A stretch of DNA of 64,000 nucleotides from Nitrospira sp. (lineage in GTDB: Bacteria; Nitrospirota; Nitrospiria; Nitrospirales; Nitrospiraceae), in the NCBI GenBank assembly GCA_024998565.1, contig JACOEM010000010.1, positions 1 to 64,000 of the forward strand, given 5' to 3'. The notes under the pieces were generated by a model. It was not told the origin of the DNA, searched no databases, and worked only from the letters and a program-made list of their open reading frames with translations. Made by a program: the position numbers and the translations under genes. Position 1 is the first letter of the stretch. Each line of letters begins with the position of its first letter. Positions 19,232 through 39,723 of this stretch are shown in pieces.

Positions 19232-19753
19232 ATGAGCGCCTCACCCTCGATCGATCTGGAACGGTTGTTTCACGAGCATCAGCGCGATCTCCTGGCCATG
19301 CTTCGGCGCATGGTGGGATGCCAGGAAACCGCGGCCGATCTGGCTCAGGAAGCGTATATTCGTCTCGCCGATGTTCCCACATCGCAGATCATTGCGTCCC
19401 CACGCGCATTCCTGTTTCGGACTGCCACGAATCTCGCGTTGGACCATTTCAGGAAACAGAAATTCCGCGGCCAGCGGCACACGTCACTGGAAGAGGCCGA
19501 ACAGGTTCCCACCGGCACACGACCGGTCGATGCCCAGGCGCATGACAGGCAATTGGTCGCGACGCTTGAGAAGGCGCTCTCCTCCCTCCCGGACCGCACC
19601 CGGGCTATCTTTGCCATGCGGCGGGTGTACGGGTATTCCTACCAGGAAATTGCGGCGCAATTGGGGATGTCTGAACGCGCCGTCGAAAAGCAGCTCGTCA
19701 AAGCGATGACCTGCTGTCAGGAAGCGCTTCGTTCCAAAGATCTGCAGGCCTGA
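19232..19753 (+). CDS. ECF sigma factor, FecI-like
   Basis: This 173-residue sigma-70 family protein has region 2 (FHEHQRDLLAMLRRMVG, ETAADLAQEAYIRLAD, AFLFRTATNLALDHFRKQK) and region 4 (LPDRTRAIFAMRRVYGYSYQEIAAQLGMSERAVEKQLVKAM). This is the iron-starvation FecI class, normally held by a FecR-type protein and released when a TonB receptor is occupied. The two following genes are exactly such partners. ATG 19232 is selected by family length; its ribosome-binding site is weak, and the frame extends to 19187. Confidence 0.9.
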   Translation: MSASPSIDLERLFHEHQRDLLAMLRRMVGCQETAADLAQEAYIRLADVPTSQIIASPRAFLFRTATNLALDHFRKQKFRGQRHTSLEEAEQVPTGTRPVDAQAHDRQLVATLEKALSSLPDRTRAIFAMRRVYGYSYQEIAAQLGMSERAVEKQLVKAMTCCQEALRSKDLQA

Positions 19754-19856
19754 TGGGGGTGAGGGGGAAAAGAGCGAGCTGACACGTCGGACATATGAGA
19801 CTATAGTGCGTCGATCGCTCGCATGTTCCCGGTTTGCCGAGCCGCCATGGGCCACC

Positions 19857-20855
19857 ATGTCACCTGAAGACCATCGTTCGCCGGGGCCGTCCGTGCCCCA
19901 ACCGTCTGATTCGCAACTGATGAAGGAAGCGACTGCCTGGTTTATGCGTCAGGCGGCCGACGATTTTTCCGGCGCCGAGCGCCGCCGGTTGGATGCGTGG
20001 CGCGCGCAAAGTCCGGCGCACGCGCGCGCCTACCACCAGGTTCAGATGCTGTGGGATGCACCGGAATTGCAACAGGCCGCGGTCCGGAATGTGGCCGGTG
20101 ATACGATCGATGCGTTACGTCGGCAGGCGCATCATTCTTGGCGCAGGGGACGCATGGCGGCTGCAGCCGTCTTCTTGCTCGTCGGCATGGCTCTCTGGAG
20201 CGATGCGGTATTGATCTGGCTCACATCCGACTATTCAACGGGAATCGGAGAACAGCGGGTCGTGACCCTTCCGGATCGATCGGTCGTGATCTTAAATACG
20301 GACAGCTCAATCGCGGTGCGGTATGAGTCCGGTCGTCGGCACGTGGAATTGTTGCGGGGAGAGGCGTCCTTTGCCGTTCAACCCGATCCGGAACGGCCGT
20401 TTACGGTTGAGAGCCGCGGAATCGCCACGACGGCCGTCGGCACCCAATTTTTGGTCAAGGATCGCAAGACAGACGTACAAGTCACCGTGTTGAGCGGTTC
20501 GGTCCTGGTGACCGACGGGAAGAGACGATCGGATCAGGCCGTTCGTTTGGCTGCCGGCGACCAGGTGTCCGTCGGGCCGCAAGGCGCAGGCGGGGTCGAT
20601 CGCGTGGATACGGCTGCCGTTGCCGCATGGATGCAGGGTCGTCTGGTGTTCGTCCGCACTCCCCTGGCTGATGTCGTTCACGATCTGGCGCGCTACCATC
20701 GCGGGTACATCGTCATCTGGAATCCCGCCCTGCAATCGCTCCCGATCACCGGGATCTATAATCTGTCCGATCCTTCTCATGTCTTCACCACTCTGGCGGA
20801 CACGCTGCCCATTCGTATGGTTCGGCTCACGGACCATCTGATCGTCATTCGCTAG
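19857..20855 (+). CDS. FecR-family anti-sigma regulator
   Basis: The 332-residue protein has the FecR arrangement. A cytoplasmic DUF4880 segment (EATAWFMRQAADDFSGAERRRLDAWRAQSPAHARAY) binds the sigma factor. One membrane span follows (AAAAVFLLVGMALWSDAVLIWL), then a periplasmic FecR domain (VTLPDRSVVILNTDSSIAVRYE, LRGEASFAV, VGTQFLV, VLSGSVLV) and a C-terminal STN-like part. It should sense the TonB receptor and control the adjacent sigma factor. GTG 19806 is an alternative start; neither has a good ribosome-binding site. Its TAG stop opens the dispersed repeat that follows. Confidence 0.9.
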   Translation: MSPEDHRSPGPSVPQPSDSQLMKEATAWFMRQAADDFSGAERRRLDAWRAQSPAHARAYHQVQMLWDAPELQQAAVRNVAGDTIDALRRQAHHSWRRGRMAAAAVFLLVGMALWSDAVLIWLTSDYSTGIGEQRVVTLPDRSVVILNTDSSIAVRYESGRRHVELLRGEASFAVQPDPERPFTVESRGIATTAVGTQFLVKDRKTDVQVTVLSGSVLVTDGKRRSDQAVRLAAGDQVSVGPQGAGGVDRVDTAAVAAWMQGRLVFVRTPLADVVHDLARYHRGYIVIWNPALQSLPITGIYNLSDPSHVFTTLADTLPIRMVRLTDHLIVIR

Positions 20856-20966
20856 CCGGCTGTTGCCAAAGGCCGCCGGCGCCGTTCTCGCGTTGCTCAC
20901 TCCTTCGACCTACCGGAACAGTTCGCCTCAGTCGTTCGCTCGCTGCGGCCTTGCCGGACGGCCTCA
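20853..20966. repeat. Dispersed intergenic repeat copy, starting at a stop codon
   Basis: The stop codon of the FecR gene begins TAGCCGGCTGTTGCC, close to the end sequence TAACAGGCTCTTG at 41552 and to the terminal repeats of the element at 34354-34616. AAAGGCCGCCGGCGCCGTTCTCGC and then GCGGCCTTGCCGGACGGCC follow, both found in near-identical form in the 34354 copy. I interpret it as a copy of one intergenic repeat family. The remainder to 21138 shows no gene or riboswitch I recognise. Confidence 0.55.
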
Positions 20967-21138
20967 ACACACTGCTTGCGTCCCGTTCTGATTTTCCATC
21001 CCTGCAGCGAATAAATCCGTTTCCCTTTTCATTCTGCCGGGGGGATTTTCTCTTTGTCATACGTCCAGGCACAGGGAGAACACCACGATCGAGGAAACGG
21101 ACTCCCCAATCCTTGATAGTCCACCGATGGAGGTTTGA

Positions 21139-23637
21139 ATGCGGAACAGTGCCTGCTGCCGACGCCGGTCTATGCTCGCATGGAATCGATGGCGTGACGT
21201 CCTTTTCACCATGAATCTGCGGATCCTGCTCCTTCTCATCATGTTGGTATTCACTTCCGCGGGTGTCGATCACGCATCCGCGCAGGGCGAAGGTACGAAT
21301 GCCGGCGCGGAGCCCAGACCGAAAATCCACTATCAGATTTCTCCGCAGCCCTTGAACAGGGCGTTGCGAGACTTTGCGTTGACTTCCGGGTTGCAAGTCA
21401 GCTTTCCGGACGATATGGCACTCGGACACACGTCGGCCGAGGTGGCTGGGTCCTATACGCCCGAAGAGGCTCTGTCGGAATTGCTGGCAGGCAGCGGACT
21501 CTCGTTCCGGTTTACCAGCGTCGATACGGTGACGTTGGAGCGGGCACAGCCCTCCGGCATGTCCCAGGCACCGGCAGGAGAAGATCGCCATGCTGCCCCT
21601 GCGTCGGGTCACACCAGATCGGCGACATCCTCATCCAGCGTCAAGCCCGTGGTCGTCCCGGAAATCGTGGTCAAAGATGTGCATGAACGGAACGAGCCGG
21701 ACCAGGAACTGGTGAAGGACATCGCCGGAACGGTGAATGTTGTGACACGCGAAGAAATCCAGCGAGCCAGACCCAAAAACGCGGACGAAATGTTGCGACG
21801 GGTTCCCGGTGTCAACGTCTTGGATGAATATGGCCAGGGGTTACGACCGAACATTGGAATACGGGGCATGGATCCCCGGCGCAGCAAAAATATTCTGCTG
21901 ATGTTGGACGATATCCCCATCCAACCGGCCCTCTTTGGAGATGCGTCGACGTACTACATGGTGCCGATCGAACGCATCGATCATATCGAGGTGATTAAGG
22001 GCGGAGCTACGGTCCTCTATTCGCCGAATACTCAGGGCGGCCTGATTAACTTCATTCAGAAGCGGATTCCCACGACGCCGACCTTCTCCACCACGAATAC
22101 GTTCGGCAGTTTCAACCTGTTTCAATCGGACACGCAGTACGGCGGTTACTTCGGAAATTTCGGGGCGCAGCTCGGATATGTCCGGCGCCAATCGGACGGC
22201 TTCAGAGACCGCAGCAAATCACAGTTGGACGATTTCACGATGCGATTCGAAGCCAATCCGGATGACAGAACCCGCATTACGACCAACATCTCCTGGTATG
22301 ACGAAACGACGCAGACACCGGGAAGTCTCACGCCGACGCAATATCGAAACGACCGCACGCTGGCGGGGAAGCCGCAGGATGAATTCAAAGGACAGCGGGG
22401 AGCAATAGACGTGACGGCAAGTCGGGAGATCGACGCCCACAATACGGCTAAGATCATCGTGTACGGCAACGTGTTCGAACGGAATTGGTATATCCAGGAT
22501 CAAGCCGCGAATGGCACGCTGCTTTCCAGCAGTACGAATTTTTTGCGCAAGTTCAATGTCTTCGGCGTGATGCCGCAGCATCAGTTCAAATTCTCACTGT
22601 TTGGATTGGATCAAAAAATCACGTCCGGCGTTCGGTACCACGCGGAGCGGCTCACCGACATCACCGGGATCGGCACAGCCGGTTCGAAGATCAGCCGTAC
22701 GACTAATAATGCCGATCTGGAGTCGGTAGCCTATGCGGCCTATACGGAGACCGCCATCCGGTTGACCGAAGCCCTCACCATTTCCCCCGGCATCCGGTGG
22801 GAGCAGGTCAATCAAAGCCGCGAGACGATGAATGCCGTTCCGCCTGTGGGTGGGAATTTCAAGAGCTACAAGACGACTCAGGGGCTGATCTACGGGACGG
22901 GGGTGAAGTACCAACTCACTCCGGACAGCCTGTTGTTCGGGCATGTGCACACCACATTCCGGCCGCCCACCTTCGCGAATGCGGTCGATCCGACGAGCGG
23001 AACCACACAAGACCTCTCGGCGGAACGCGCGTTGAGTTCGGATATCGGTGTCCGCTCGAATATCCTGCCCGGCGTGAGTGCGGAAGTCGCCCTGTTTCGA
23101 ACCGAATTCAGCAACCAGATCGTGCAGCAGGGCAGCCAGTTCGTCAACGCCGGCAAAACATTGATGGAAGGAGTCGAGAGTACCGTCAGTCTCGATTGGG
23201 GCGAGATCGTCCGCCCATTGCAAGGCTTCGTCACCAGGGGCAGCATCACGCTTTTGCGGCCGAAATCGCTGTTCGGATCGACAGACGGGAAAGACCTTCC
23301 CTATGCCCCGCGTATGACGTTCTACGGATTGGTGGGCTATTACCACCCGACCGGTGCTTCGATCGAGGCCGATGCCCTGTTCGTTGCCCAGCAATTCACC
23401 GATGGCGTAAATACGCAAACGGAAAATGCTCTCGGCACCACAGGCGCGATCCCGTCCTACACCATCTGGAACCTCAGGCTCAATTATGCGCCGCCCAAGG
23501 CTCGATGGGCGGTCTTCGCCGGCGTGCGCAACCTCAGCGACGAATCGTTTATCGCGCAACGAACGACCGGCAGTTTCATCGGCATTCAGCCCGGAGAAAT
23601 CCGGAACTTTTACGGCGGCGTGTCATGGCGATTCTAA
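21139..23637 (+). CDS. TonB-dependent outer-membrane receptor with STN domain
   Basis: The protein is 832 residues. A long signal sequence (basic start, then LRILLLLIMLVFTSAG) precedes an STN signalling domain (PLNRALRDFALTSGLQVSF, PEEALSELLAGSGL) at about 60-140, which contacts the FecR-type protein. The plug follows (DIAGTVNVVTREEIQRARP, LRRVPGVNVLDE, GIRGMDPRRSKNILLMLDDIP, VIKGGATVLYSPNTQGGLINF), then a 22-strand barrel ending in WRF. It resembles FecA-type ferric-chelate receptors, but the ligand cannot be read. ATG 21139 has GGAGG five bases upstream; an ATG at 21211 is closer to the hydrophobic core. Confidence 0.92.
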   Translation: MRNSACCRRRSMLAWNRWRDVLFTMNLRILLLLIMLVFTSAGVDHASAQGEGTNAGAEPRPKIHYQISPQPLNRALRDFALTSGLQVSFPDDMALGHTSAEVAGSYTPEEALSELLAGSGLSFRFTSVDTVTLERAQPSGMSQAPAGEDRHAAPASGHTRSATSSSSVKPVVVPEIVVKDVHERNEPDQELVKDIAGTVNVVTREEIQRARPKNADEMLRRVPGVNVLDEYGQGLRPNIGIRGMDPRRSKNILLMLDDIPIQPALFGDASTYYMVPIERIDHIEVIKGGATVLYSPNTQGGLINFIQKRIPTTPTFSTTNTFGSFNLFQSDTQYGGYFGNFGAQLGYVRRQSDGFRDRSKSQLDDFTMRFEANPDDRTRITTNISWYDETTQTPGSLTPTQYRNDRTLAGKPQDEFKGQRGAIDVTASREIDAHNTAKIIVYGNVFERNWYIQDQAANGTLLSSSTNFLRKFNVFGVMPQHQFKFSLFGLDQKITSGVRYHAERLTDITGIGTAGSKISRTTNNADLESVAYAAYTETAIRLTEALTISPGIRWEQVNQSRETMNAVPPVGGNFKSYKTTQGLIYGTGVKYQLTPDSLLFGHVHTTFRPPTFANAVDPTSGTTQDLSAERALSSDIGVRSNILPGVSAEVALFRTEFSNQIVQQGSQFVNAGKTLMEGVESTVSLDWGEIVRPLQGFVTRGSITLLRPKSLFGSTDGKDLPYAPRMTFYGLVGYYHPTGASIEADALFVAQQFTDGVNTQTENALGTTGAIPSYTIWNLRLNYAPPKARWAVFAGVRNLSDESFIAQRTTGSFIGIQPGEIRNFYGGVSWRF

Positions 23638-23687
23638 CGAGTAGGGGCAGTGCCCTCCGGGGACTCTCTATATAAGGAGTGTTGACG

Positions 23688-24497
23688 ATGAACAGGAGAA
23701 GTTGTGCAGTCGGACTGTGGAGCGCGATGGTGCTGTCTGTTCTTGCGGGGCCTTCTTTGGCCGGGGCCCATTTCGTGTGGGTCGAGGCCGACGCCATCGC
23801 GCCGGCTGAAACCGGTCAGCCGCTCAAGATCTATTTCGGCGAATACAGCGAGTTTCTACGGGAGGAACGCGGTGGGCGTCTGGATTCGATCGACGGAGTC
23901 ACGCTACGTGTGCAGGACTCCAGGCAGGGTACGACTGAAGTGGCTCTGACCAAACAGGTCAATCACTTTGCCGGGGCGCTGCCGTCGTGTCTGCCCGGCC
24001 GGAATGCGGTGGTGGCGCAGCAGGCGCAGGCCCCGGTTCAGGATTTACGCAAACACGACATCGGCCTCGTCAAACCGATGTTTTATGCGCGGACCTATTT
24101 CATGTGCATGGAAGAGGGCCGTCTCAACGAGCATGAACGGGATCAGGCCGCGCCAATGGCCCTCGACATGATTCCCCTGACCAAGGGACTGAATCTGGCG
24201 ACCGGGCGAGTCAGCCATGTACCGGGCGGTGAAATCGTCGTCAAGGGCTTCTTCAAGGGGCAACCCCTTCCGAATACGACGATCTTGGTCCATGCGCCCA
24301 TCGGGTGGGACAAGGAATTAAAAACGGATGGGGAAGGAATTGTGGCCTTCACAGCGCTCTGGCCGGGACGGTATGTCCTGGAATTGATTCACGTCGAAAA
24401 AACGCCGGGTGAATTTCAGGGGAAGCCGTACGAGGCGCTTCGGCATCGGAGCACCTTGGCGATTCAGGTGCGGGCTGAGCGTTCAGGGGAGAAATAG
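23688..24497 (+). CDS. DUF4198-type periplasmic protein
   Basis: The 269-residue protein has a signal peptide (LWSAMVLSVLAGPSLAGAH) directly followed by HFVWVEAD, the N-terminal start typical of DUF4198 proteins, where an exposed histidine is often linked to nickel, cobalt or other metal uptake. A carboxypeptidase-regulatory-like beta domain closes the protein (GGEIVVKGFFKGQPLPNTTILVHAP and GRYVLELIHVE). AAGGAG lies nine bases before the ATG. Position directly after a TonB receptor and before a PepSY protein suggests a role in metal handling in the periplasm. Confidence 0.8.
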   Translation: MNRRSCAVGLWSAMVLSVLAGPSLAGAHFVWVEADAIAPAETGQPLKIYFGEYSEFLREERGGRLDSIDGVTLRVQDSRQGTTEVALTKQVNHFAGALPSCLPGRNAVVAQQAQAPVQDLRKHDIGLVKPMFYARTYFMCMEEGRLNEHERDQAAPMALDMIPLTKGLNLATGRVSHVPGGEIVVKGFFKGQPLPNTTILVHAPIGWDKELKTDGEGIVAFTALWPGRYVLELIHVEKTPGEFQGKPYEALRHRSTLAIQVRAERSGEK

Positions 24498-25301
24498 ATG
24501 GGCCGCGGGGCGGCTGAGCGGATCGTCAGGCGGGCGCATCGATGGCTCGGCATAGGGGCGCTTGGTTTTCTCCTGTTGTCCGTCGTGACGGGACTGCTCT
24601 GGGCGGATGCGAAGTTTCTCTATTGGGATGAGCACTATAAGGAAAAGGTGCGACCGCTCACGGGGCCGCCGGTGGATTCCGCGACACTGCCGCTCGACCG
24701 GGCGCTGGTCCTGGCGAAAGAGGCGGTGGGAGGTCGCGCGCTGGTCGAGCAGGCCACGTTGCGCACCGACTTTGGCCGGCTTTTCTATGATGTGAAGCTC
24801 CGGGGGCAAGGCGGCTCGACGACTGTGCTGTTGGATGCCCTGAGCGGCGAGCGCCTGTCTCCGATTACGGAGGACCTGGCTCCGGCCATTGCCATGCAAT
24901 ACGTGCGTCCACCGGCCGCCGTTACGGGCGTGGAAATGGAACGGTACACGCCCAGGAAGAAAAAGCGCGCCTACGATGCCGTGCGTGTCCGGTTCGATGA
25001 TGCTGAGGCCACGGAGATTGTGCTGGACCGGCAGACCGGTGAAATCCTTGAGGATGAGGGCCGTTGGCGGAAAGTGCATTTTGCCGTGATGCAATTGCAC
25101 CAGCTGAATTTTTTCGGCTTCGAGAAAACCCTGCTCAATATTCCCGGGGTGCCGATCCTGCTGATGAGTCTGTCCGGGCTGTTCTTGTGGGGATTCCATC
25201 GTGCCAGGGCCAGGCGGGCCAGGCAGGCGGCTGTCGCTGGCCTGGCGGCCGCGGTGCCGTCACGATTGCCGGCGACATCCGAGGAAACCACGCGCGCCTG
25301 A
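24498..25301 (+). CDS. PepSY-associated membrane protein
   Basis: The 267-residue protein has an N-terminal membrane helix (WLGIGALGFLLLSVVTGLLWADAKFL) with the RRAHRWLG start typical of the PepSY_TM group, a periplasmic part with two PepSY-like repeats (LDRALVLAKEAVGG; EIVLDRQTGEILEDEGRW) and a C-terminal helix (LNIPGVPILLMSLSGLFLWGFH). Such proteins accompany TonB receptors and are thought to help reduce or release imported ferric chelates. The start codon directly abuts the stop of the DUF4198 gene, so they are one transcription unit. Confidence 0.82.
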   Translation: MGRGAAERIVRRAHRWLGIGALGFLLLSVVTGLLWADAKFLYWDEHYKEKVRPLTGPPVDSATLPLDRALVLAKEAVGGRALVEQATLRTDFGRLFYDVKLRGQGGSTTVLLDALSGERLSPITEDLAPAIAMQYVRPPAAVTGVEMERYTPRKKKRAYDAVRVRFDDAEATEIVLDRQTGEILEDEGRWRKVHFAVMQLHQLNFFGFEKTLLNIPGVPILLMSLSGLFLWGFHRARARRARQAAVAGLAAAVPSRLPATSEETTRA

Positions 25302-25376
25302 CAGGGTTGGCGCCGGAGCGAGGTGCTGTGGCGTTTTCTTTCGCCCGTTGTTTACAATGTCACGCAGGAGGCCGGC

Positions 25377-27410
25377 GTGACGATTCGCACCATCAAAGGC
25401 CGCATTGTGCTCGCCATCGTGCTGGTGGGCTGTATCCCGCTGGTGATCGGCCTGGTGCTGGCGTCGATGTCCGGCATGCGCTCCCTCCGTGATGTGATCG
25501 GCGGAAATTTTCAGGCAATTGCCGAACAGGCCGCCGACCGTTTGACCATGCTCGTTCAGGGTGAAGTCCAGGGAGTGCGGTTGCTCGCCTCAGCCCCCTT
25601 GCGGGTTCGCCAGCCGGTCGAGGCCGCCAACCTGTCGTACAAAGGCGAGTGGGCCGATACGCAGCGGCTGATTCAGGAACGCGCGGGGGAGTGGGAGAAG
25701 GGGCATGACAGCGCCGCCGGCCTGCTGAATTCTGAATTGTCCCGCTTCCTGCTGGAGACCAAAGTCCGCGACGGCGACAAGATGGTGGGGCTGTTGATCA
25801 CCGACCGCTATGGGGCGCTGGTCGCAGCCAGCTCGGAACCGGACCATTATTTCCTGAGCCAGGAACCCTGGTGGGAGGCCTTGCAGGCCGGAGGCCTGGA
25901 CCGGGTCTACGTCAGCGGGTTGATCCCCGGACAGGAAGGATCCTTTCGCTCGCCGGAAGAAACCATCGATATCGCGGTCCCCATCCTGGACGACCATCAG
26001 CATGCAGTCATCGGCGCCATCAAGGCGTCCTACCGGTTCGATTCCCTCTTCGCGATGATCAAAGAGATCCGCATCGGGCAGACCGGCCATGCCATGTTGT
26101 TCGATGCCGCGGGTCAGCCGCTCGTCTGTCCTATCCTTCCCCGACGTGCGCATCGGATTCCCAGTCAATTGATGGCCATGATCGTCTCGTCGAATCCCGG
26201 CTGGGGCATTGCCGAGGACGACGGCCATGGTGCGACCGATACGGTGGTGGGGTATGCGCCCGTGACGGGGCTGAGCCTGCCGGATAACTCCTGGCACGTC
26301 TTCGTGCGGCAGCAACCGGAGGAAACCTATGCGCCGATTCGCGACCAGCTGCGGAACCTCGCGTTGATCGGTGTGGTCATGTTGTGTCTGCTCTGGGCCA
26401 TGGGGCGGTATGTGGCGGCACGGATCGCCCGCCCGATCCAGGTGTTGAAATCGGGTGTGGAAGCCATCAGCCAGGGCACGTACGATGGTCCGCTCGACAT
26501 CAAGACAGGAGATGAGTTCGAGGAACTCGCCGTGGCCGTGCACCGGATGGCGGACCGGCTGCAATCCTCGCGAACCGAACTGGAATCGCTGAACGCGGAG
26601 CTGGTGCATCGGGTGGAGGAGAAGACGGCGGAAATTACCCGCCAGATGCGGAAACTGGAATTGTCCGAACGCCTCGCCACGCTGGGCAAAGTCGCCAGCG
26701 GGATCGCCCATGAGATCAATAATCCGCTCGGCATCATTTTGAACCGGATTGAATGCATGGAGGCCGATGCGGCACAGACCGGCGTGCCGGAGGAGGTCGG
26801 ACGGGATCTGGTGACGATCCGCACGCAGGCGGAACGGATCTCCCGGGTTACGCGCAGCATTCTCACCTTCTCCCGCGGGACCGTCTCGATGTTGAAGCCC
26901 CTGGATCTCAATTGCGTGGCGCGCACCTGTGTCGCCATGGCCGGTGAGCGGGTTGCTGCGCTGGCAGTCCGGATTGACGCGCAAGTGGCGCCCGAGTTAT
27001 CACCGGTGATGGGCGATCGCGATCGCCTGGAAACGGTCCTGCTCAATCTGATCAACAATGCCATCGATGCAGTCATCGGCTCAGACAGTCAAGGGATCAT
27101 CACGGTGAGCACTGCGCGGGTGCCGATCGACGGAGACGAGTGGGTGCGAATCAGCGTGTCCGATAACGGGCCCGGTGTGCCGACCGAGATCCTCGATCGC
27201 ATCTTCGATCCGTTCTTTACCACCAAACCGGCCGGCCAAGGGACCGGGCTGGGCCTGTTTCTGAGTTATGGAATTGTCTCGGACCATCGTGGCCGCATTG
27301 AGGTGCGGAACCACGCCGTCGGCGCCGTCTTCGATGTGTATCTGCCTGCGGTGGCATTCGGGAACCGGGTTCATGAGGGAACATCATGGGGATTGCAGGA
27401 AAAATCCTGA
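25377..27410 (+). CDS. Sensor histidine kinase with periplasmic dCache domain
   Basis: The 677-residue protein has a first membrane span ([20 protein letters not shown]), a periplasmic sensor of about 300 residues with the double-Cache pattern ([60 protein letters not shown]), a second span, HAMP ([17 protein letters not shown]), a coiled coil, the phospho-acceptor histidine in [11 protein letters not shown], and the ATPase N, G1 and G2 boxes ([21 protein letters not shown]). GTG 25377 has AGGAGG five bases upstream and is preferred to GTG 25323. Its end overlaps the regulator gene by 25 bases. It is the evident partner of that regulator. Confidence 0.92.
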
Positions 27411-28807
27411 TCGTCGATGACGAACAGGATGCGCTGGAGAATTGCCGCCGGATACTGAGTCGTGTGCCGTATGACTGTCTGACCGAATGTGATCCCGCCC
27501 GTGCGCTCGATGTGATCCAGCGCGAGCGGCCCGGCCTGATCCTCACGGATTTGCGTATGCCCGATCTCGACGGGATTGAGGTCCTGGCGGCAGCCAAACG
27601 GTTCGATCCCTCGGTGCAGGTGGTACTGTTGACGGCCCATGCAACGGTTCAGACTGCGGTCACGTCGATGCGGTATGGCGCCTTCGATTACATTACCAAG
27701 CCGTTTACGAGCGCGGACCTGGTGTCGGTTGCCCGTCGCGCGTTCGGAGAGGATGGGGCGGGGCCTGTCGCCGCGGCCGTCGGTGCGCCCGAGCTTCTGG
27801 ACCCCCCTGAGCAGGCGCGTTCCGGGAAGCGTCCCGGCTTGTCACGAGTTATCGGCGAGAGTTCCGCCATGCACTCGGTGTTCAATCTGATTGAAAAGGT
27901 CGCGCCGACGCATTCCAATGTGCTGGTCTATGGAGAAAGCGGAACAGGAAAAGAGCTCGTGGCGCGTGCCATTCACGATGCCAGCCTGCGAGCGGAACGT
28001 CCCTTCATTCCGGTGGATTGCGTGTCTCTTCCTGATACGCTGCTGGAGTCCGAACTATTCGGCCATGAGAAGGGGGCGTTTACCGGCGCCCATGTCTCGA
28101 AGCCCGGCCTCTTCGAAGTGGCGGCCGGTGGGACGGTGTTCCTCGATGAAGTCAGCGGCATGAGCCAGACCCTGCAGTCGCGTCTGTTGCGGGTGTTGCA
28201 GGAACGGCAGATGCGACGGGTGGGGGGCATTCGGTTTCTGGAGGTGGATGTGCGGGTGATTGCGGCATCCAACCAGGATCTTGAATCGGCCTGCCGCCGG
28301 GGTGAGTTCCGCGAAGATCTCTATTACCGGCTGAACGTCATCCCTATTGTGTTGCCGCCCTTGCGGACTCGCGAGGGGGATATTCTCCTCCTGGCGCGGG
28401 AGTTCCTGCGGCGGTTCATGAAACAGCAGCGGCTGGGCCTGGCGTTTGTGCCGGAGTTGGACTCCTCGGCGTCGGATCTGTTGTGCGGGTACTCCTGGCC
28501 GGGGAATGTACGTGAGCTGCAAAACGTCATTGAGCGCGCCGCAGTGCTGGCCGACGGGCCGGTCATTACGAGTGCGCATTTGCCCGACCGTTTGCGGGAG
28601 TGCGGGGGCGAGGAAGCAGCCTCCGCCGAAGCCGGCTCCTTCAAACATGCCAAGCAGGCAGCCGTGACGAACTTTGAGCGCAGCTTTTTGATCGATCTCC
28701 TCAAGCGTCACGACGGCCACATGGGACGTGCGGCACGGGAATCCGGCGTCGATCGGAAGACGATCGAACGGATGGTGAAGAAACACGGCCTGCGCGAACT
28801 GTTCTAG
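27386..28807 (+). CDS. NtrC-family sigma-54-dependent response regulator
   Basis: This 473-residue protein has three domains. The receiver has the phospho-acceptor aspartate in LILTDLRMPDLDG and KPFTSAD. The AAA+ domain has Walker A GESGTGKE, the sigma-54-contacting loop KGAFTGAH, Walker B GGTVFLDE and the arginine finger region. The Fis-type helix-turn-helix is near the C terminus (GHMGRAARESGVDRKTIERMVKKHG). It activates sigma-54 promoters from upstream sites when phosphorylated. Two matching palindromes and a sigma-54 promoter lie immediately downstream in front of the giant oxidase, its likely target. It is translationally coupled to the kinase. Confidence 0.94.
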   Translation: MGIAGKILIVDDEQDALENCRRILSRVPYDCLTECDPARALDVIQRERPGLILTDLRMPDLDGIEVLAAAKRFDPSVQVVLLTAHATVQTAVTSMRYGAFDYITKPFTSADLVSVARRAFGEDGAGPVAAAVGAPELLDPPEQARSGKRPGLSRVIGESSAMHSVFNLIEKVAPTHSNVLVYGESGTGKELVARAIHDASLRAERPFIPVDCVSLPDTLLESELFGHEKGAFTGAHVSKPGLFEVAAGGTVFLDEVSGMSQTLQSRLLRVLQERQMRRVGGIRFLEVDVRVIAASNQDLESACRRGEFREDLYYRLNVIPIVLPPLRTREGDILLLAREFLRRFMKQQRLGLAFVPELDSSASDLLCGYSWPGNVRELQNVIERAAVLADGPVITSAHLPDRLRECGGEEAASAEAGSFKHAKQAAVTNFERSFLIDLLKRHDGHMGRAARESGVDRKTIERMVKKHGLRELF

Positions 28808-28974: not shown

Positions 28975-28994
28975 ATGGGGCGTTGATGTCCCAT
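28975..28994. promoter_or_regulatory. Distal putative activator-binding palindrome (UAS1)
   Basis: The left arm ATGGGGCG is identical to the arm of the second site; the right arm TGTCCCAT matches the inverted repeat at six of eight positions, with a four-base centre TTGA. Geometry is the same as at 29066-29085. It lies about 198 bp before the predicted sigma-54 start point, a usual distance for an NtrC-type enhancer. Confidence 0.6.
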
Positions 28995-29065: not shown

Positions 29066-29085
29066 ATGGGGCGCCTACGCCCCAT
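29066..29085. promoter_or_regulatory. Proximal putative activator-binding palindrome (UAS2)
   Basis: Perfect 8-bp arms ATGGGGCG and CGCCCCAT enclose CCTA. Its centre is 91 bp from the centre of the distal site and about 107 bp before the predicted sigma-54 start point. The NtrC-type regulator encoded just upstream is the obvious candidate binder. Confidence 0.65.
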
Positions 29086-29155: not shown

Positions 29156-29172
29156 TTGGAACGGGAGTTGCT
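29156..29172 (+). promoter_or_regulatory. Sigma-54 (-24/-12) promoter of the multicopper oxidase
   Basis: TTGGAACGGGAGTTGCT matches the sigma-54 consensus YTGGCACGRNNNTTGCW at all fixed positions but one (A for C at position 5). The invariant GG is at 29158-29159 and GC at 29170-29171, with the required ten bases between. Transcription should start near 29183, leaving a leader of about 180 bases before the oxidase start codon. Confidence 0.72.
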
Positions 29173-29362
29173 CTAGAGATGGCCGTCTTTATACGTGCAG
29201 TGGGGGACGCGCCATCGTGGCAATGATCGCGAGCTAGGAAGTGGAAGACGATGGACCGGCCTCCGGAGTTTTCCACTCCATGAGGTGCAGGTCCCCATGG
29301 ACCTGCACCGCTCGCGGCAGTCTCGTGGTGCGGTGTTTATGGTTTCAAGAGGAGGTAGGTCA

Positions 29363-32300
29363 ATGAGATCGGTACGAAGCGGGCCTAAGAAGTACAGTCA
29401 GCGAAGGTCCCGGGCAGCCTGGAAGTATGTGCTGGGGGCGATGCTCCCGACGGTCTGCATCGGGGCATTCCACGTCGCGTCGGCGGAGCCGACCGACCTG
29501 CATGCCGCGGCGCACAACCAGCCGGCTTGGGCAGAGCAGCTCAAGGGGCAGACCATCGTCGAGGATGCCAAGGAAGGGCATGTCGAGCGGACGGCCATGA
29601 TGGAGCGGCAACACCAGCGCATCATGGAGAAGATCAATGAGCAGATGGTGCATGACGCCGAGGTGCAGCGGACCGGCGGGCAGTACAACAACATCAACAT
29701 GATGCACCAGTACGGCGCGGGAAATCAGGATCTCCTTCTGATGTCCAATCCCTCCGCCGAGCCTGTGTCGATGGGCGGCGGGCGCTGCCCGGCCAATGCA
29801 CCGGTGCGCACGTACGATGTCTCCGCGATCAACGTCGAGATCACGCTGAATATGTGGCTCGATTTTTATCCCGGCTATATGTACGTGCTGACGGAGAATA
29901 TCGACAAGGTGCGCGCGGAAGAGACGAAGAATAAAGACGCGCGCGACGTGGAAGGGTACAACCCGGGCGCAGTGATGAACGGGTTGCAGAATCAATGGAT
30001 TCAGCCCCTCGTCCTTCGCGGCAACCAGGGCGATTGCGTCAAGCTCACGCTTCGCAATCAGCTCGAGGGCACGGAAGAGGTCAGTCTCAACATTCACGGC
30101 TCCAGCATGGTGATGGCGGCCACGGGCCAGCCGGCTAGCACCACCAATCCGGACAGCATTGCCGGACCGGGAAAGGCCGTGGACATGGAATGGTACATTC
30201 CGCCCACGCAGCAGGAGGGTAGCCGCCAGTTCCATTCGTACAGCAACGACCGCGAATTGACCGTGATGGGCCTCTTCGGGTCGTTCGTGATCGAACCGAA
30301 GGGCTCGGAGTATCTTGAGCCGTTGGGAACCGGAGATCCTCAGCCCACCAAGAGCGGCTGGCAGGCGATCATCAAGAACGGAGCCGGTCCTGACTTCCGT
30401 GAGTTCGTGCTGTTCTACCACGAAGTCGGCGATGAAGCCTTCCGCCCGTTGAATAAGAAGGGCGACTTCATTCCGCAGCGCGATCCGTTGACCGACGTCT
30501 ATCGCCCGGTGGCCCGCGCGTTGAACTACCGCAGCGAGCCGTTCGGCGTGGACAACATGCAAACGCAGCATGAATATTTCGGCTTCGAAGATGAGTCGAT
30601 GGCCTACAGCGCCTATACGTTCGGCGATCCGGCCACGACCATTCCGCGCAGCTATCTCGGTGACCCGGCCAAGTTCCGGCTGGTGCACGGAGGCTCGGAA
30701 GTGTTCCATTCACATCATCCGCACGGAGGTTCGATCCGTTGGCCGCGCAGCCCGCGGGCGATCGATGAAATGCCGCTCTGGCATACGGCGAAGAACGGCC
30801 CGGTGAAGTACCCGGTGATCCGGACGAAGTCCGATCGCGTCGACGTGGAAGTGATCGGTCCGTCTGAGACCATGGATCTCGAAACGGAGTGCGGATCCGG
30901 ACTCTGCCAACAGTTGGCCGGAGACTTCCTGTTCCATTGCCACGTGGCCCATCACTACATCGCGGGGATGTGGGGCTACTGGCGCGTGTACAACACCATT
31001 CAGCAGGGTGCGAACCACAACGATGTGATGCCGGATCTGTTGGAGTTGCCGGACCGCAAGGGCCGGATCAAGGTGGGTATCACGTCCGACGAGTTGATCG
31101 GCAAGACGGTCGATTGGTTCGGCAAGCAATTCACGATTATCGAGAAGGGCAAAACCGATTGGAAGGCGAGCCCGGCTCTGGTGACCCTGAAAGACTGGGT
31201 GGAGATGCAGTTCCCGCCACAGGGCTTGCCTGGTCACAAGAAAGACGAGCGTGAGCAGACCAGGTCCTACGATGCCAGCGTGTTGAACTGGGGCTGGCAG
31301 GGCAATCGCGCCATGACCGAGCCGGAGAACACGGTGCCGAATCCGCGCTATCAGTCGGCGCATCCGAACGAGCGGCTGCCGATCGTGTTCGAGCCGTTGA
31401 CCGGCAAGGTCTCCTGGCCGCATTTGAAGCCGCATTTCGGTCGCCGGGTGCCGTTCTCCAAAGGCCACAATCCTTCTCCGTGGCTGGAGATGATCCATCT
31501 GGAAGAGGACGGGTTGCCGAGTTCCTATCCGGCCAAGCCGGGAGAGAACGGGCGCTGGAGCCTCTGTCCGGAAAATGCCGGTTCGAAGAAATACAACGTG
31601 CACTTCATCCGCACGCCGATGATGTTGGCCGATAAGCAGGGCAACACGCCGGCGATTATGGATGAAGGCGGGATGATCTATGTCCTGCACGAAGAAGAAG
31701 CCGCCATTCGGAAGAACAACGACCTGAAGTTCCCGTTGGTCGTGCGGTCGAACATCTATGATTGCGTCGATTGGATGTTGACCAGCGAATGGGACGACGA
31801 TGACTACTCGAATTTTCATGCATCGAAGGTCAATACCCATTGGCATTTCCTGCAGTTCGACAATCAGTCGTCGGACGGTGTGATCACCGGCTTCTCGAAC
31901 GAACAGTCGGTGCGCCCGTTCACCATGTTGGAGAAGAAAACGGACAAGGGATTGCCCTTGCCCTTGAATACCACGTTCACGAAGGCGGGCAAAAAGGGCG
32001 ATCGTGTCATCACCCTCAAGAACGCCGCCCAGTATCATCCTGGCATTGAGATCCTGATCGGCGCGGATAACGTCGGTGGGAATGAAGTCGGGCGGATCCA
32101 GTCGATTAAGGGCAACGAGATCACGCTCGTGCGGCCGTTGAAGAACGATCATCCGGTGAAGGATATCGTCACGGTCGAGTTCGTTCGGCAGCGGTTCTGG
32201 GTCGATTCCGATGTGGGCACCGTGTTCTGGCACGACCATGCGTTGGGCCGGATTACCTGGGGTCACGGCGGATTCGGCACCATGATCGTCGAGCCGGTCG

Positions 32301-34246
32301 GTTCGACGTATCACAATCCGAAGACCGGAGCGCCGATCCGGAGCGGTCCGTTGGCGGACATCCGCACTGCGGAGCCTGTGGGCTACGGGGTGAACGGCAG
32401 CTTCCGTGAGTTGCTCGTGCAGTTGAACGATAGTGTGCCGCACACGATCAATATCGTGACGGCCGGTAATCCTCCTGGACAGCCGGTCGAGGTGGCGCTG
32501 GAAGCGGGGAAGACGATTTCCTTCCCGATTCCCGACCATATCAAGATGACGCCGATGCCGTTCCTGAACGGCGGAACGCATACGACGGGCGGCAGCCTGA
32601 ACTTCCGGGCGGAGCCGATCTCCGGCCGTATGGCGGCCAATCCGGATATGTCGAAACTCTTCAGCAGCGCCGTGCACGGCGATCCGTACACGCCGATGGT
32701 ACGTGCGTACCTGGGCGATACGGTCGTCTTCCGGTTGTTGCAGACCATGACCAACGAAAGCATGGTCTGGACGCTGTCCGGACATACCTATCTGACTGAG
32801 CGGTATGCCGGCGACGCGAACCGGAAGAACTCGATCCATGTCGGCATTGCCGAGCGGTACGACCTGGTGGTGCCGCAGGCCGGCGGACCGAGACTGCAAG
32901 CGGGCGACTACATCCACTTCAACGGACGTTCGTCCAAGTTCTCGGAAGGTGCCTGGGGGATCTTGCGCGTCCTCGATAAGGACGTGGCGGATCTGCAGAA
33001 GTTGCCGGCCGGCTACAGTGGCCGGAACGAAATTCCCAAGGCTCCGGCGGTGTGTCCTGCCGAGGCGCCGGTGAAAAACTTCAACGTCGTGGCGATCGAT
33101 TTCCCGTCCATGAAGTTGAATCCGAAAGCACCGGATGCCATCGAGGTCGATTTCGAACGCACCATCCAGATGGTCAATCCCGATGCCAAGATCTACACCT
33201 TGGAGGAGGATGTGTCGGCCGTGGCGTCCGGTGCGCAACCGATGCCGTTGACGTTGCGGGCGAATGTCGGCGACTGTCTTAAAATTAGGTTGACCAACAA
33301 GATGAAGCAGGGTCGGGCGTCCTTCTCGGCGCTGGGCCTGGCGTTCGATCCGAAGGATTCGCTGGGTGCGAACGTCGGCAACAATCCGGGCGAGCAAACG
33401 GTCGCGCCGGGTGAGAGCCGCGTCTACACCTACTATGCCGATCCGTTCCTCGGGGAGACTGCGTCCCTGGTGTGGGATTGGGGTAATGTCATGACCAATC
33501 CGCGCAACGGCCTGTTCGGCGGTATCGTCATCGGCCCGAAGGGGGCGACGTATCGCGATCCGAAGACCGGTGCGGATATTTCCCTGAAGAACAGCTGGGT
33601 CGCCGATGTCATTGTGGATCGGTCGATTCAGGGCTACGAGAATCGCCAGAACTATCGCGATGTGGCCCTGTTCTTCCAGGACGAAGACAACATCATCGGG
33701 ACGAGCTTCATGCCCTACGTGCAGAACACGGCGGGCTTGACGGCTGTCAACTACCGCTCGGAACCGTATAAGTTCCGGGAGTCAAACGGTTGCACGTTGG
33801 GCAAGGTCTTCCAGCCTTGCTCGGTGGATAAGCCGGAGAGCATTGCCACGCCGCTCATCGAAGCGCATGCGGGAGATCCCGTGCGTATCCATGTGTTCGG
33901 TGCGAGCAATGAGCAGAACGGCATGTTCAGCGTCGAAAAGCATGAGTGGCCGATCGAACCGTTCATGCGCGGCGCCGACCAGATTAGCGTCGTTGAGTTC
34001 TCCGCCTCGGAGAGCCTCGATGCCTTCATCCCGGCAGCCGGCGGAAGCTTCCGCCTCCCGGGTGATTACGTCTGGAGCAATCAGCGGTTGCCCTATGCCC
34101 AATCCGGGCAGTGGGGATTGATGAAGGTGTTGCCGCATGACGATCAACGGATCCTCCCGTTGAGTCAGCAGGCGCCTTCCATCAAGCGGGCGGACGTCGA
34201 GTCTGGAACACCCACTGTCTCCAGAATGTCGAATCCGCTCCGGTAA
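29363..34246 (+). CDS. Giant secreted multicopper oxidase (MofA/MnxG-like)
   Basis: The protein is 1,627 residues with a Sec signal (KYVLGAMLPTVCIGAFHVASAE) and several cupredoxin domains. All four copper motifs are present: HSHHPH at 449 (HxxHxH), HCHVAHHYIAGM at 525-536 (HCHx3Hx4M, including type-1 ligands), HWH at 826 and HDH at 957. The order is unusual, because common laccases have the two HxH motifs first. Size and motif style point to the very large bacterial oxidases of the MofA or MnxG type associated with manganese(II) oxidation, but iron, copper or another substrate is possible. Later cupredoxin-like repeats (from about residue 1230) appear to lack copper ligands. AGAGGAGGT precedes the chosen ATG. 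It is driven by the sigma-54 promoter upstream and ends in a strong hairpin. Confidence 0.88.
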   Translation: MRSVRSGPKKYSQRRSRAAWKYVLGAMLPTVCIGAFHVASAEPTDLHAAAHNQPAWAEQLKGQTIVEDAKEGHVERTAMMERQHQRIMEKINEQMVHDAEVQRTGGQYNNINMMHQYGAGNQDLLLMSNPSAEPVSMGGGRCPANAPVRTYDVSAINVEITLNMWLDFYPGYMYVLTENIDKVRAEETKNKDARDVEGYNPGAVMNGLQNQWIQPLVLRGNQGDCVKLTLRNQLEGTEEVSLNIHGSSMVMAATGQPASTTNPDSIAGPGKAVDMEWYIPPTQQEGSRQFHSYSNDRELTVMGLFGSFVIEPKGSEYLEPLGTGDPQPTKSGWQAIIKNGAGPDFREFVLFYHEVGDEAFRPLNKKGDFIPQRDPLTDVYRPVARALNYRSEPFGVDNMQTQHEYFGFEDESMAYSAYTFGDPATTIPRSYLGDPAKFRLVHGGSEVFHSHHPHGGSIRWPRSPRAIDEMPLWHTAKNGPVKYPVIRTKSDRVDVEVIGPSETMDLETECGSGLCQQLAGDFLFHCHVAHHYIAGMWGYWRVYNTIQQGANHNDVMPDLLELPDRKGRIKVGITSDELIGKTVDWFGKQFTIIEKGKTDWKASPALVTLKDWVEMQFPPQGLPGHKKDEREQTRSYDASVLNWGWQGNRAMTEPENTVPNPRYQSAHPNERLPIVFEPLTGKVSWPHLKPHFGRRVPFSKGHNPSPWLEMIHLEEDGLPSSYPAKPGENGRWSLCPENAGSKKYNVHFIRTPMMLADKQGNTPAIMDEGGMIYVLHEEEAAIRKNNDLKFPLVVRSNIYDCVDWMLTSEWDDDDYSNFHASKVNTHWHFLQFDNQSSDGVITGFSNEQSVRPFTMLEKKTDKGLPLPLNTTFTKAGKKGDRVITLKNAAQYHPGIEILIGADNVGGNEVGRIQSIKGNEITLVRPLKNDHPVKDIVTVEFVRQRFWVDSDVGTVFWHDHALGRITWGHGGFGTMIVEPVGSTYHNPKTGAPIRSGPLADIRTAEPVGYGVNGSFRELLVQLNDSVPHTINIVTAGNPPGQPVEVALEAGKTISFPIPDHIKMTPMPFLNGGTHTTGGSLNFRAEPISGRMAANPDMSKLFSSAVHGDPYTPMVRAYLGDTVVFRLLQTMTNESMVWTLSGHTYLTERYAGDANRKNSIHVGIAERYDLVVPQAGGPRLQAGDYIHFNGRSSKFSEGAWGILRVLDKDVADLQKLPAGYSGRNEIPKAPAVCPAEAPVKNFNVVAIDFPSMKLNPKAPDAIEVDFERTIQMVNPDAKIYTLEEDVSAVASGAQPMPLTLRANVGDCLKIRLTNKMKQGRASFSALGLAFDPKDSLGANVGNNPGEQTVAPGESRVYTYYADPFLGETASLVWDWGNVMTNPRNGLFGGIVIGPKGATYRDPKTGADISLKNSWVADVIVDRSIQGYENRQNYRDVALFFQDEDNIIGTSFMPYVQNTAGLTAVNYRSEPYKFRESNGCTLGKVFQPCSVDKPESIATPLIEAHAGDPVRIHVFGASNEQNGMFSVEKHEWPIEPFMRGADQISVVEFSASESLDAFIPAAGGSFRLPGDYVWSNQRLPYAQSGQWGLMKVLPHDDQRILPLSQQAPSIKRADVESGTPTVSRMSNPLR

Positions 34247-36062: not shown

Positions 36063-37274
36063 ATGTCTGAAGCCGGAAACGGGCTACCCGCCATACTCAC
36101 CCTTAACGCCGGATCCTCCAGTGTGAAGTGGGCCTTGTTTCGTATTGGAGCAGAGCCGGTTCGGACGGCAGCGGGACAGATCGAGCGGATCGGGCTTCCG
36201 GATGGCATCGTCACCGTCACTGATGTTGCAACCGGACAACTCGAGCGGCGTTCCGTTCCTGTGCCGAACCACGCGGCTTCCGTCCAGGTGCTTCTCGATC
36301 AACTCGCGCAGAGCGGGAAGGGATTGTCCGTTCAAGCCATCGGTCATCGAGTCGTGCACGGAGGCAGTCGTTACGCAGACCCGCAGGTGGTCTCCGCTGA
36401 GGTGATGGAGGAGTTACGGCGGCTGAGTCCCTACGATCCGGAACATCTTCCGGCCGAAATCACCTTCATCGAGGCATTCGGCACCGAATATCCGCAGGCG
36501 CCGCAAGTGGCCTGCTTTGATACCGGGTTCCATCAACATCTGCCGCCGGTGGCGCGTCTCCTGGCCATCCCCCGTCGCTATGAAACACTGGGCATCAGAC
36601 GGTACGGGTTTCATGGCCTCTCGTATGCGTTTCTGATGGAGGAATTGGAACGGATGGCGGGCCGTGACGCCGCGCGCGGTAAGGTGATTCTCGCCCATCT
36701 GGGAAACGGGGCCAGTCTGGCGGCGGTGCGGGACGGCGTCAGTATCGATACGAGCATGGGCTTTACTCCGGCTTCCGGTCTGCCGATGAGCACCAGGTCC
36801 GGCGATGTGGACCCGGGACTGATTTCCTACCTAGCCAGGACCGAAGGCATGACGCCGGAGCAGTTTCACCACATGGTCAATGCGCAGTCCGGCCTCTTGG
36901 GTCTGTCGGAAACCAGCCCGGACCTGCGTGACCTGCTGGCGCAGGAAGGGCACGATCCGCGCGCCGCCGAGGCGGTGGCGGTGTTTTGTTACCAGGGCAA
37001 GAAGTGGATCGGGGCCTATGCGGCAGCGCTGGGCGGGGTGGAACAGTTGGTCTTCAGCGGCGGCATCGGTGAACATGCGGCGGTCGTGCGGGCGCGTATG
37101 TGCGAGGGCCTGGAGTTTCTCGGCATCCATCTGGATCGAGAGCAGAACGAGGCCAATGCCGCCGTGATTTCCAGCCCGGCAAGTCGCGTGACCGTGCGGG
37201 TGATCCGTACCGACGAAGAACGTCAGATTGCGCAATCGGTCTGCCGGTTATTGGCATTGAACGAAGTTTGTTGA
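36063..37274 (+). CDS. ackA: Acetate kinase
   Basis: This cytoplasmic enzyme of 403 residues converts acetyl phosphate and ADP to acetate and ATP, or the reverse. Signatures are ILTLNAGSSSVKWALF at the N terminus, YRRYGFHGLS-type RRYGFHGLSYAF, VILAHLGNGASLAAV and the C-terminal FSGGIGEHAAVVR. The length matches the family. AGGGG precedes the ATG. The phosphoketolase that makes acetyl phosphate follows after 73 bp on the same strand, so the two form a pathway: sugar phosphate to acetyl phosphate to acetate plus ATP. Confidence 0.96.
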   Translation: MSEAGNGLPAILTLNAGSSSVKWALFRIGAEPVRTAAGQIERIGLPDGIVTVTDVATGQLERRSVPVPNHAASVQVLLDQLAQSGKGLSVQAIGHRVVHGGSRYADPQVVSAEVMEELRRLSPYDPEHLPAEITFIEAFGTEYPQAPQVACFDTGFHQHLPPVARLLAIPRRYETLGIRRYGFHGLSYAFLMEELERMAGRDAARGKVILAHLGNGASLAAVRDGVSIDTSMGFTPASGLPMSTRSGDVDPGLISYLARTEGMTPEQFHHMVNAQSGLLGLSETSPDLRDLLAQEGHDPRAAEAVAVFCYQGKKWIGAYAAALGGVEQLVFSGGIGEHAAVVRARMCEGLEFLGIHLDREQNEANAAVISSPASRVTVRVIRTDEERQIAQSVCRLLALNEVC

Positions 37275-37347
37275 CGATGCAGGACGGTCGTCCACGCCTG
37301 TCGTGGGCGATTGATGACCGACAGTCAAAACTGGAGAGAGGGAGCCT

Positions 37348-39723
37348 ATGAATCAGACGACGCAGGCGAATCAACCGCTCAGCCCGGAGACAGTGCAACG
37401 GATTGATGCCTACTGGCGGGCGGCGAATTACCTTTCCGTCGGACAGATATATTTGTACGACAATCCCCTGCTGAAACAGCCGTTGAAGCGGGAGCATATC
37501 AAGCCGCGCCTGCTCGGCCATTGGGGGACGACGCCGGGGCTGAATTTTATCTACGTCCATCTCAACCGCATCATCAAATCCCAGGATCTGCCCGTGCTGT
37601 ACATCGCGGGGCCCGGACATGGGGGGCCTGGCCTGGTTGCGAACGTGTACCTCGAAGGCACCTACAGCGAGGTCTATCCGAACATCTCGCAGGACGAAGC
37701 AGGCTTGCAGCGCCTGTTCAAACAGTTTTCTTTCCCCGGCGGTATTCCGAGCCATGTCGCGCCGGAAACGCCCGGTTCTATCCACGAAGGCGGTGAACTG
37801 GGCTATTCCCTAGCCCATGCCTATGGGGCGGCCTTCGACCACCCCGAATTGCTGGTGGCTTGTGTGATCGGAGACGGGGAAGCCGAAACCGGTCCGCTCG
37901 CGGGGAGTTGGCATGGGAATAAGTTTTTGAATCCCGTGCGGGACGGGGCGGTGCTGCCGATTCTGCATTTGAACGGGTACAAGATCGCCGGCCCGACCGT
38001 GCTGGCACGTATGCCGCCGGACGAGCTTGAATCTCTGCTGGTCGGGTATGGTCATCAGCCGTTTTTCATCGAAGGTGATGATCCTGCGACGATGCATCAG
38101 CTGATGGCGTCTACGCTGGACGAAATTGTCACGACGATCCGGGGCATTCAGCAGGAGGCCCGGTCCAAGGGATTTACCGGCCGTCCGCGCTGGCCCATGA
38201 TCGTCTTGCGTACCCCGAAGGGCTGGACCGGGCCGAAGGAAGTGGACGGCAAACCGACGGAGGGCACGTTCCGTTCCCATCAGGTGCCGATGGGCGAGAT
38301 GGACAAGCCCGGACATGTCGAGTTGCTGGAAGCATGGCTGAAGAGTTATCGGCCGGAGGAGTTGTTCGACGAAGCGGGGAAGTTAATGCCGGAGCTGGCC
38401 GAGCTGGCGCCGACCGGCGAGCGACGCATGGGGGCTATTGCTTGCGCGAACGGGGGCGGCCTTCTCCGCGATCTTCAAATGCCCGATTTCCGACAGTACG
38501 CGGTGCCGGTGGTGAAACCAGGCATCGAGGATGCCGAAGCGACCAGAGTGCAGGGATTGTTCCTGCGCGATGTCCTGAAGATGAATCCCCACAACTTTCG
38601 GCTGTTCGGGCCGGATGAGACGGCGTCGAACCGTTGGGGCGGAGTGTTTGAAGTAACCGATCGCTGCTCGACCGAGCAGATCCTCCCCACCGACGAACAT
38701 GTGGCGCACGACGGGCGTGTCATGGAGATCTTGAGCGAGCACCTGTGCCAGGGTTGGCTCGAAGGGTACCTGCTGACGGGACGGCATGGGTTTCTGAATT
38801 GTTATGAAGCGTTCATTCACATCGTCGATTCCATGTTCAATCAGCATGCGAAGTGGCTCAAGACCTCGCGCGAGATTCCCTGGCGGCGGCCGATCGCCTC
38901 ACTGAATTATCTGTTGACGTCGCATGTGTGGCGCCAGGACCACAATGGTTTCAGCCATCAGGATCCCGGCTTCATCGATCATGTGGTGAATAAGAATGCC
39001 CAGGTGATCCGTGTCTATCTGCCGCCCGATGCGAACACGCTCTTGTCGGTCACGGACCACTGTCTGCGCAGCCGCGATTATGTGAACGTGGTGGTGGCGG
39101 GAAAACAGCCGGCTCCGCAATGGCTGGATATGGACGCCGCCGTGCTGCACTGCACTGCCGGGATCGGGATTTGGGAATGGGCGAGCAACGACCGCGGCAG
39201 CGAGCCCGACGTCGTGATGGCCTGTTGCGGCGATGTGCCGACGATGGAGACGCTGGCGGCGGTGGAGATCCTGCGAATCGCCCAGCCCAATTTGAAGGTG
39301 CGTGTGGTCAATGTGGTCGATCTCATGAAGCTGCAGCCGGCGAGTGAACATCCGCACGGGATGTCCGACAAGGAATTCGATGCGTTGTTCACGACCGACA
39401 AACCGATCATCTTCGCCTTCCACGGGTATCCGTGGCTGATCCACCGGCTCACCTACCGACGGACCAACCATGACAACCTGCATGTGCGGGGCTACAAAGA
39501 AGAAGGTACGACGACCACACCGTTCGACATGGTTGTGCTGAACGATCTGGACCGGTTCCACCTGGTCTCCGATGTGGTGGACCGTGTGCCGCAGCTCGGG
39601 GCGCGTGCCGCCTATCTCAAGCAGGAGATGCGCGACAAACGCATGTTGCACAAGCAGTACATCGAGACCTATGGAACCGATATGCCGGAGATCAGAAACT
39701 GGAAGTGGAGCGGGAAGCGGTAG
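37348..39723 (+). CDS. xfp: Xylulose-5-P/fructose-6-P phosphoketolase
   Basis: This thiamine-diphosphate enzyme of 791 residues splits xylulose 5-phosphate (or fructose 6-phosphate) with phosphate into acetyl phosphate and an aldose phosphate. Family signatures include [18 protein letters not shown], the cofactor-binding [19 protein letters not shown], and the C-terminal [12 protein letters not shown]. The length is normal for bacterial phosphoketolases. GAGAGAGGGAG precedes the ATG. It sits between acetate kinase and a HAD hydrolase that starts three bases after its stop, in one operon. Confidence 0.96.

Follow-up and report, generated by a model that had tools for sequence, protein, structure and literature searches.

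MnxG of Bacillus (PDB 9bxa, titled the H340A variant of MnxG; Priestia megaterium plasmid copy L021) consists of six cupredoxin domains, the second and third of which house the copper sites. Its ligand motifs come in the order HxxHxH, HCH, HxH and HDH, and it is preceded by small ORFs taken as MnxE/F. The six-domain fold is shared by ceruloplasmin and by Chlamydomonas Fox1. In Fox1 the trinuclear site also lies between domains 2 and 3, whereas in ceruloplasmin it lies in domains 1 and 6, and there are several type 1 (T1) coppers (PMC3600357). In every bacterial six-domain oxidase analysed in that paper, domains 2 and 3 are said to hold the trinuclear site and domain 2 alone the mononuclear one. 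For Nitrospira and Nitrospina, members of the family studied here have already been described as putative manganese or ROS-defence oxidases. In the passages that deal with the enzyme, PMC3578206 likens an oxidase of Nitrospina gracilis and N. defluvii to MnxG of Bacillus SG-1, places it in a cluster with NXR and a bd-like oxidase, and raises the idea of an Mn(III)-based ROS defence. According to PMC12070406, Nitrospira MAGs contain MnxG, which is suggested to play a part in filters; PMC11995701 detected such genes in almost every nitrifier MAG and states that their function awaits verification. The kind of enzyme is already known; the present analysis adds a class-wide count, a cupredoxin neighbourhood and the picture of a dedicated switch.

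We analysed a 64-kb stretch of a Nitrospira contig (the window), which belongs to a genome of 4.13 Mb in 19 contigs. An initial annotation had described a 1,627-residue multicopper oxidase here, and both its frame and its four copper motifs were confirmed. The 1,627 codons are open from the ATG at 29363-34246 (+), with a ribosome-binding site, AGGAGGT, close 5'. The program-called ORF has an earlier start, GTG 29195; the ATG and its ribosome-binding site are common to the orthologs. The sense frame is kept at 90–98% among genus relatives, and two antisense ORFs of 449 and 895 aa show no sign favouring coding. The protein had been proposed to be extracytoplasmic, in agreement with an N-terminal signal peptide through which it is predicted to be exported. 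Rfam and tRNA searches across the 64-kb window found nothing. The gene and its parts are:

29363..34246 (+), six-domain multicopper oxidase, copy type A, 1,627 aa
29363..29485 (+), predicted N-terminal export signal, residues 1–41, with hydrophobic core 22–36 and ASA/EP end; boundary set by eye
29777..31060 (+), repeat unit 1, domains 1–2, residues 139–566, with the putative T1 copper in domain 2 (hhalign)
30707..30724 (+), HSHHPH motif, residues 449–454, invariant in 86/86 copies
30935..30970 (+), HCHVAHHYIAGM motif, residues 525–536, T1 Cys/His/Met and trinuclear His
31550..33028 (+), repeat unit 2, domains 3–4, residues 730–1222 (hhalign)
31838..31846 (+), HWH motif, residues 826–828, aligned with MnxG HIH
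32231..32239 (+), HDH motif, residues 957–959, aligned with MnxG HDH
33044..34198 (+), repeat unit 3, domains 5–6, residues 1228–1612, without a copper-ligand set (hhalign, structure model)

The motifs follow one another as HxxHxH (449), HCHx3Hx4M (525), HxH (826) and HxH (957), at the positions and in the order first annotated. All 11 copper ligands are invariant across the 86 aligned family copies, so the motif set is not due to chance. The four motifs are also kept in 85/85 copies read from a named scan, which covered the best 80 of 495 confirmed relatives and leans to kin of its Manganitrophus-like first row. Past residue ~1000 there is no copper-ligand set, as had been noticed; domain 1 likewise carries no copper ligands, a point absent from the earlier account. 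That account had also regarded the motif order as unusual, a rearrangement relative to common laccases. This view has to be given up. The aligned MnxG has the same order, and since PMC3600357 presents siting in domains 2 and 3 as the class norm, the 'reverse' order is ordinary. A new motif rearrangement was accordingly rejected in favour of an order normal for bacterial six-domain oxidases and MnxG. From the MnxG alignment, the trinuclear ligands of the window oxidase are predicted to lie in domains 2 and 3, and T1 in domain 2 alone.

Three two-domain units of the protein align mutually (hhalign probability 99.8–99.9) and therefore make up six domains; Pfam matched Cu-oxidase_3 twice. AlphaFold models were obtained for residues 139–1232 (pLDDT 77.7, pTM 0.80) and 716–1616 (pLDDT 78.8, pTM 0.83). 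The best fold match of both was 9bxa (Z 22.9 over 740 residues and Z 23.3 over 677), followed by ceruloplasmin, with factor V/VIII alongside. We are all but certain that the protein is a six-domain multicopper oxidase with this architecture. Since the models have low confidence at the loops bearing the T1 and trinuclear ligands, convergence of the four motifs on one copper site is proposed by homology. Each repeat unit is also matched by one monomer of the Streptomyces two-domain laccases, such as SLAC (Z about 18–20). Two-domain laccases form their sites between three separate chains, whereas the window oxidase has three units on one chain and a single site set. Near-invariant cysteine pairs recur at the start of each unit (142/225, 735/801 and 1231/1305), which makes one disulfide in each of them likely.

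The best PDB sequence match of the window oxidase was MnxG 9bxa (E 1.6e-81), in line with the MnxG-like class assigned initially. A family profile of 60 rows matched the same chain at E 8e-122, with HWH826 and HDH957 aligned to HIH and HDH. The 9bxa chain has Ala where Priestia MnxG and the window oxidase have the T1 His because it is the H340A variant; a literature search found no text on the structure of this variant. A tree of 113 rows, built by a quick method and with long outgroup branches, placed the Nitrospirota and Nitrospinota rows in one clade (SH-aLRT 100). A Streptomyces copy was sister to this clade, MnxG joined Haladaptatus, and proteobacterial long forms also fell outside. The phylogeny with MnxG that the initial annotation had proposed sets the window family in a clade of its own.

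The same motif order and fold would be expected of a true MnxG ortholog acting in an MnxEFG-like complex. However, the best NCBIfam family, MnxG (NF041487), reached only 127.5 bits where its cut-off is 3100, and no MnxE/F match was found at E 1e-3 at the window or at 119 other loci, the queries being Priestia ORFs assigned to MnxE/F by position. Together with the separate clade, these results led us to reject orthology with MnxG, which we consider extremely improbable. The two proteins are only ~27% identical and measure 1,228 aa (MnxG) and 1,627 aa. Transfer of substrate from MnxG is weak because of this low identity, the lack of an MnxE/F match and the separate clade.

The window genome holds at least three full-length family copies: A (the window, contig C10), B (C11, 74%) and C (C6, 64%). 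The window copy is 98% identical to one in genome G023, which we identify as Ca. Nitrospira defluvii FP929003.1, with the C copies at matching positions. Two NxrA-like ORFs of 1,156 and 1,158 aa occur on contig C17, both scoring under the TIGR03479 cut-off. The N. defluvii copy and the NxrA-like genes agree with the Nitrospira-like host first suggested. The oxidase discussed in PMC3578206 is of the same family. The oxidase that PMC3578206 places in the NXR/bd-like cluster may be any of the three copies, whereas the window copy stands beside a kinase and a sigma-54 activator. NXR genes (C17) are absent from the contigs of all three oxidase copies (C10, C11 and C6), so the NXR-cluster link described in PMC3578206 is not reproduced in this assembly.

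A family match was present in 184 of 185 genomes of the class that are at least 90% complete, the one exception being 90% complete. In the phylum as a whole, a match was found in 92 of 245 genomes, comprising 88 class members and four weak matches outside the class. The named scan matched Ca. Manganitrophus GAC4, Troglogloeales, Nitrospina, Nitrospinaceae, N. moscoviensis, N. lenta and N. defluvii. GAC4 has three family members (two at L071, one at L073), ~51–57% identical to the window copy and two of the three with cupredoxins downstream. They probably include the two novel MCOs that PMC9040806 reports for every Manganitrophaceae genome. Type A itself is not genus-wide: for G019, whose genome is 100% complete, just two matches were listed, one B and one C, and per-genome copy numbers in the genus comparison are lower bounds among such matches.

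An enzyme found almost throughout the class could well have a housekeeping function, such as that proposed in PMC3578206 for Nitrospina and N. defluvii, in which an Mn(III)-producing oxidase would serve ROS defence; that paper describes organisms without SOD and catalase that carry an MnxG-like oxidase. We consider this role unlikely. We found no report of manganese activity for any family member, PMC11995701 regards the function as still to be verified, and type A's own sensor argues for a conditional rather than a constitutive role.

A small secreted cupredoxin-like gene lies on the same strand within 3 kb downstream of 84 of 104 oxidase genes, from Manganitrophus to Nitrospira, the 104 being those followed by 2 kb or more of sequence. 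The C-x2-H-x2-M loop is kept in 106 of 110 such cupredoxin-like proteins. Within 3.5 kb upstream, a sigma-54 response regulator was found for 25 of 91 oxidase genes, Manganitrophus included. In both the 104- and the 91-gene count, a genome may contribute several copies, and a few genomes are counted twice. The cupredoxins beside most relatives could be a protein electron partner in place of a metal. The family would then act as a cupredoxin-linked, O2-reducing oxidase, in which the secreted C-x2-H-x2-M blue-copper protein exchanges electrons with the T1 site and the enzyme forms part of a periplasmic electron network in nitrite and manganese oxidisers. The class-wide presence of the oxidase is consistent with such a role. 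However, no downstream cupredoxin was found at the window or at any of the six other genus type A loci (L030–L035), so that the window copy would have to be served by carriers encoded elsewhere, and the neighbourhood could mean copper supply rather than electron transfer. On balance we regard this role as rather unlikely. The other loci without a cupredoxin, among 20, are type A L036, the Manganitrophus-type L050 and L071, several Nitrospina and several others. At many C-type loci two FGE-sulfatase-domain proteins recur after the oxidase and its cupredoxin, as at L007:10564-12491. Downstream of the window oxidase, acetate kinase and phosphoketolase genes adjoin (36063-39723) and are kept in the genus loci examined.

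Genes for an ECF sigma factor, FecR, a TonB receptor, DUF4198 and PepSY lie just upstream in the window (19187-25301). They would suit a cuprous or ferrous oxidase that is tied to this cluster and confers metal tolerance, as CueO or ceruloplasmin do. Ceruloplasmin is also the next fold match after 9bxa, and the nearest relative seen outside Nitrospirota/Nitrospinota adjoins CopC. Against this, the TonB/FecIR/PepSY cluster is swapped for RND genes beside the G001 and G007 orthologs. It is therefore not a fixed partner of the oxidase and was rejected as such, and we hold a cuprous or ferrous oxidase of this kind to be improbable. As a set, the upstream genes resemble iron-siderophore uptake.

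A histidine kinase and an NtrC-type regulator lie directly before the oxidase, followed by candidate control elements:

25323..27410 (+), histidine kinase with dCache, HAMP, HisKA and HATPase domains
27386..28807 (+), sigma-54-dependent response regulator, NtrC type
28975..28994 (no strand), second dyad, ATGGG-N10-CCCAT, 91 bp upstream of the first dyad
29066..29085 (no strand), first dyad, ATGGGGCG-N4-CGCCCCAT, a possible binding site of the activator, 91 bp upstream of the -24 element
29157..29172 (+), candidate sigma-54 -24/-12 site, TGGAACGGGAGTTGCT, 206 bp before the ATG
29172..29362 (+), structured 5' leader with hairpin GGTGCAGG..CCTGCACC, its CCTCC facing the AGGAGG ribosome site

Orthologs have the kinase and regulator likewise in five of the six genus loci looked at; at L035 a PepSY gene lies directly before the oxidase. 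The candidate TGGAACGGGAGTTGCT is the sole site scoring at least 11/12 on either strand of the 64 kb. Genome-wide, the -24/-12 consensus was not enriched (34 matches, versus 40 in a reversed control) and therefore carries no weight by itself. Across the family, a site scoring at least 10 precedes 11 of 28 oxidase genes that have a regulator beside them and 11 of 86 that do not, and was found in 72 of 2,340 random windows. A -24/-12-like site and both dyads occur in similar register in all 15 genus genomes examined, out of 29 in the genus comparison (18 loci, some genomes twice), and an eight-genome alignment shows site and dyads conserved amid diverged surroundings. The exact dyad occurs once in the 4.13-Mb genome; with two mismatches allowed, it recurs at the second dyad copy and at only two other places. 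RpoN is present in the window genome. In G021 the site and dyads are kept, nearer the start and with the dyads closer to the site; no regulator orthologue was found in this genome, the best match being 45%. Altogether, these results suggest that the window copy is probably under sigma-54 control.

The leader (folded as 29172-29365) has an energy of -88.7 kcal/mol, far better than shuffles (z -4.35). Its motif GGACCGGCCTCC, unique in the genome, is kept together with the hairpin in seven of eight genus genomes and is absent in G021. Translational control through the oxidase leader is possible.

The best overall explanation of these data, to which we give an even chance, is an extracytoplasmic metal oxidase under an on-demand sigma-54 switch. 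The membrane-bound histidine kinase, whose dCache domain would be extracytoplasmic, would activate the neighbouring sigma-54 response regulator, which would bind the two dyads and drive the -24/-12 promoter of the oxidase gene. The electron donor would be a small molecule, from which the one T1 copper in domain 2 would take single electrons and pass them to a single trinuclear cluster, at the boundary of domains 2 and 3, for the reduction of O2 to water. The ORF, ligands, six-domain architecture, clade, neighbours and conserved promoter elements are established; copper loading, O2 reduction, substrate, sensor signal and regulator binding are all inferred. The likeliest donor would be a reduced periplasmic metal ion, with Mn(II) ranked ahead of Fe(II) or Cu(I). 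We give a metal ion as substrate an even chance, and Mn(II) as the main substrate is plausible but put forward only tentatively. Metal oxidation would serve protection and metal redox balance rather than growth.

Taken more broadly, the family may form a core periplasmic copper-oxidase system, with blue-copper partners, of nitrite- and manganese-oxidising Nitrospirota and Nitrospinota. The window copy would then be a metal oxidase induced through a sensor and sigma-54 switch of its own that serve this one target. We think it unlikely that this whole picture holds. If it did, Nitrospira could start to oxidise Mn(II) once it meets the metal, a behaviour suspected in sand filters for drinking water. 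Manganese oxidation by Nitrospira would have practical weight for nitrification and drinking-water filters, the setting considered in PMC12070406, and the candidate enzyme is near-universal in the class. The window copy's own apparent sensor and promoter elements offer a direct handle, as the inducing signal would point to the likely substrate.

Several copies elsewhere in the family depart from the common pattern. L048 (G021:C12:138446-143308), a C-type paralogue, has six in-frame TGA codons in its match, can be read only as two separate ORFs and is a decayed copy. L044 and L045 (G050 and G041) encode a long variant of ~1,710–1,770 aa belonging to family f3 of the order, with extra sequence near window residue 916. 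A contig labelled 'Poseidoniales archaeon' (L103) carries a Nitrospina-type copy and one labelled 'uncultured Nitrosospira' (L132) a Nitrospira B copy; both placements are likely binning or labelling errors. In several genomes oxidase paralogues lie in pairs ~10 kb apart or less (L059, L060, L061, L050 and L143).
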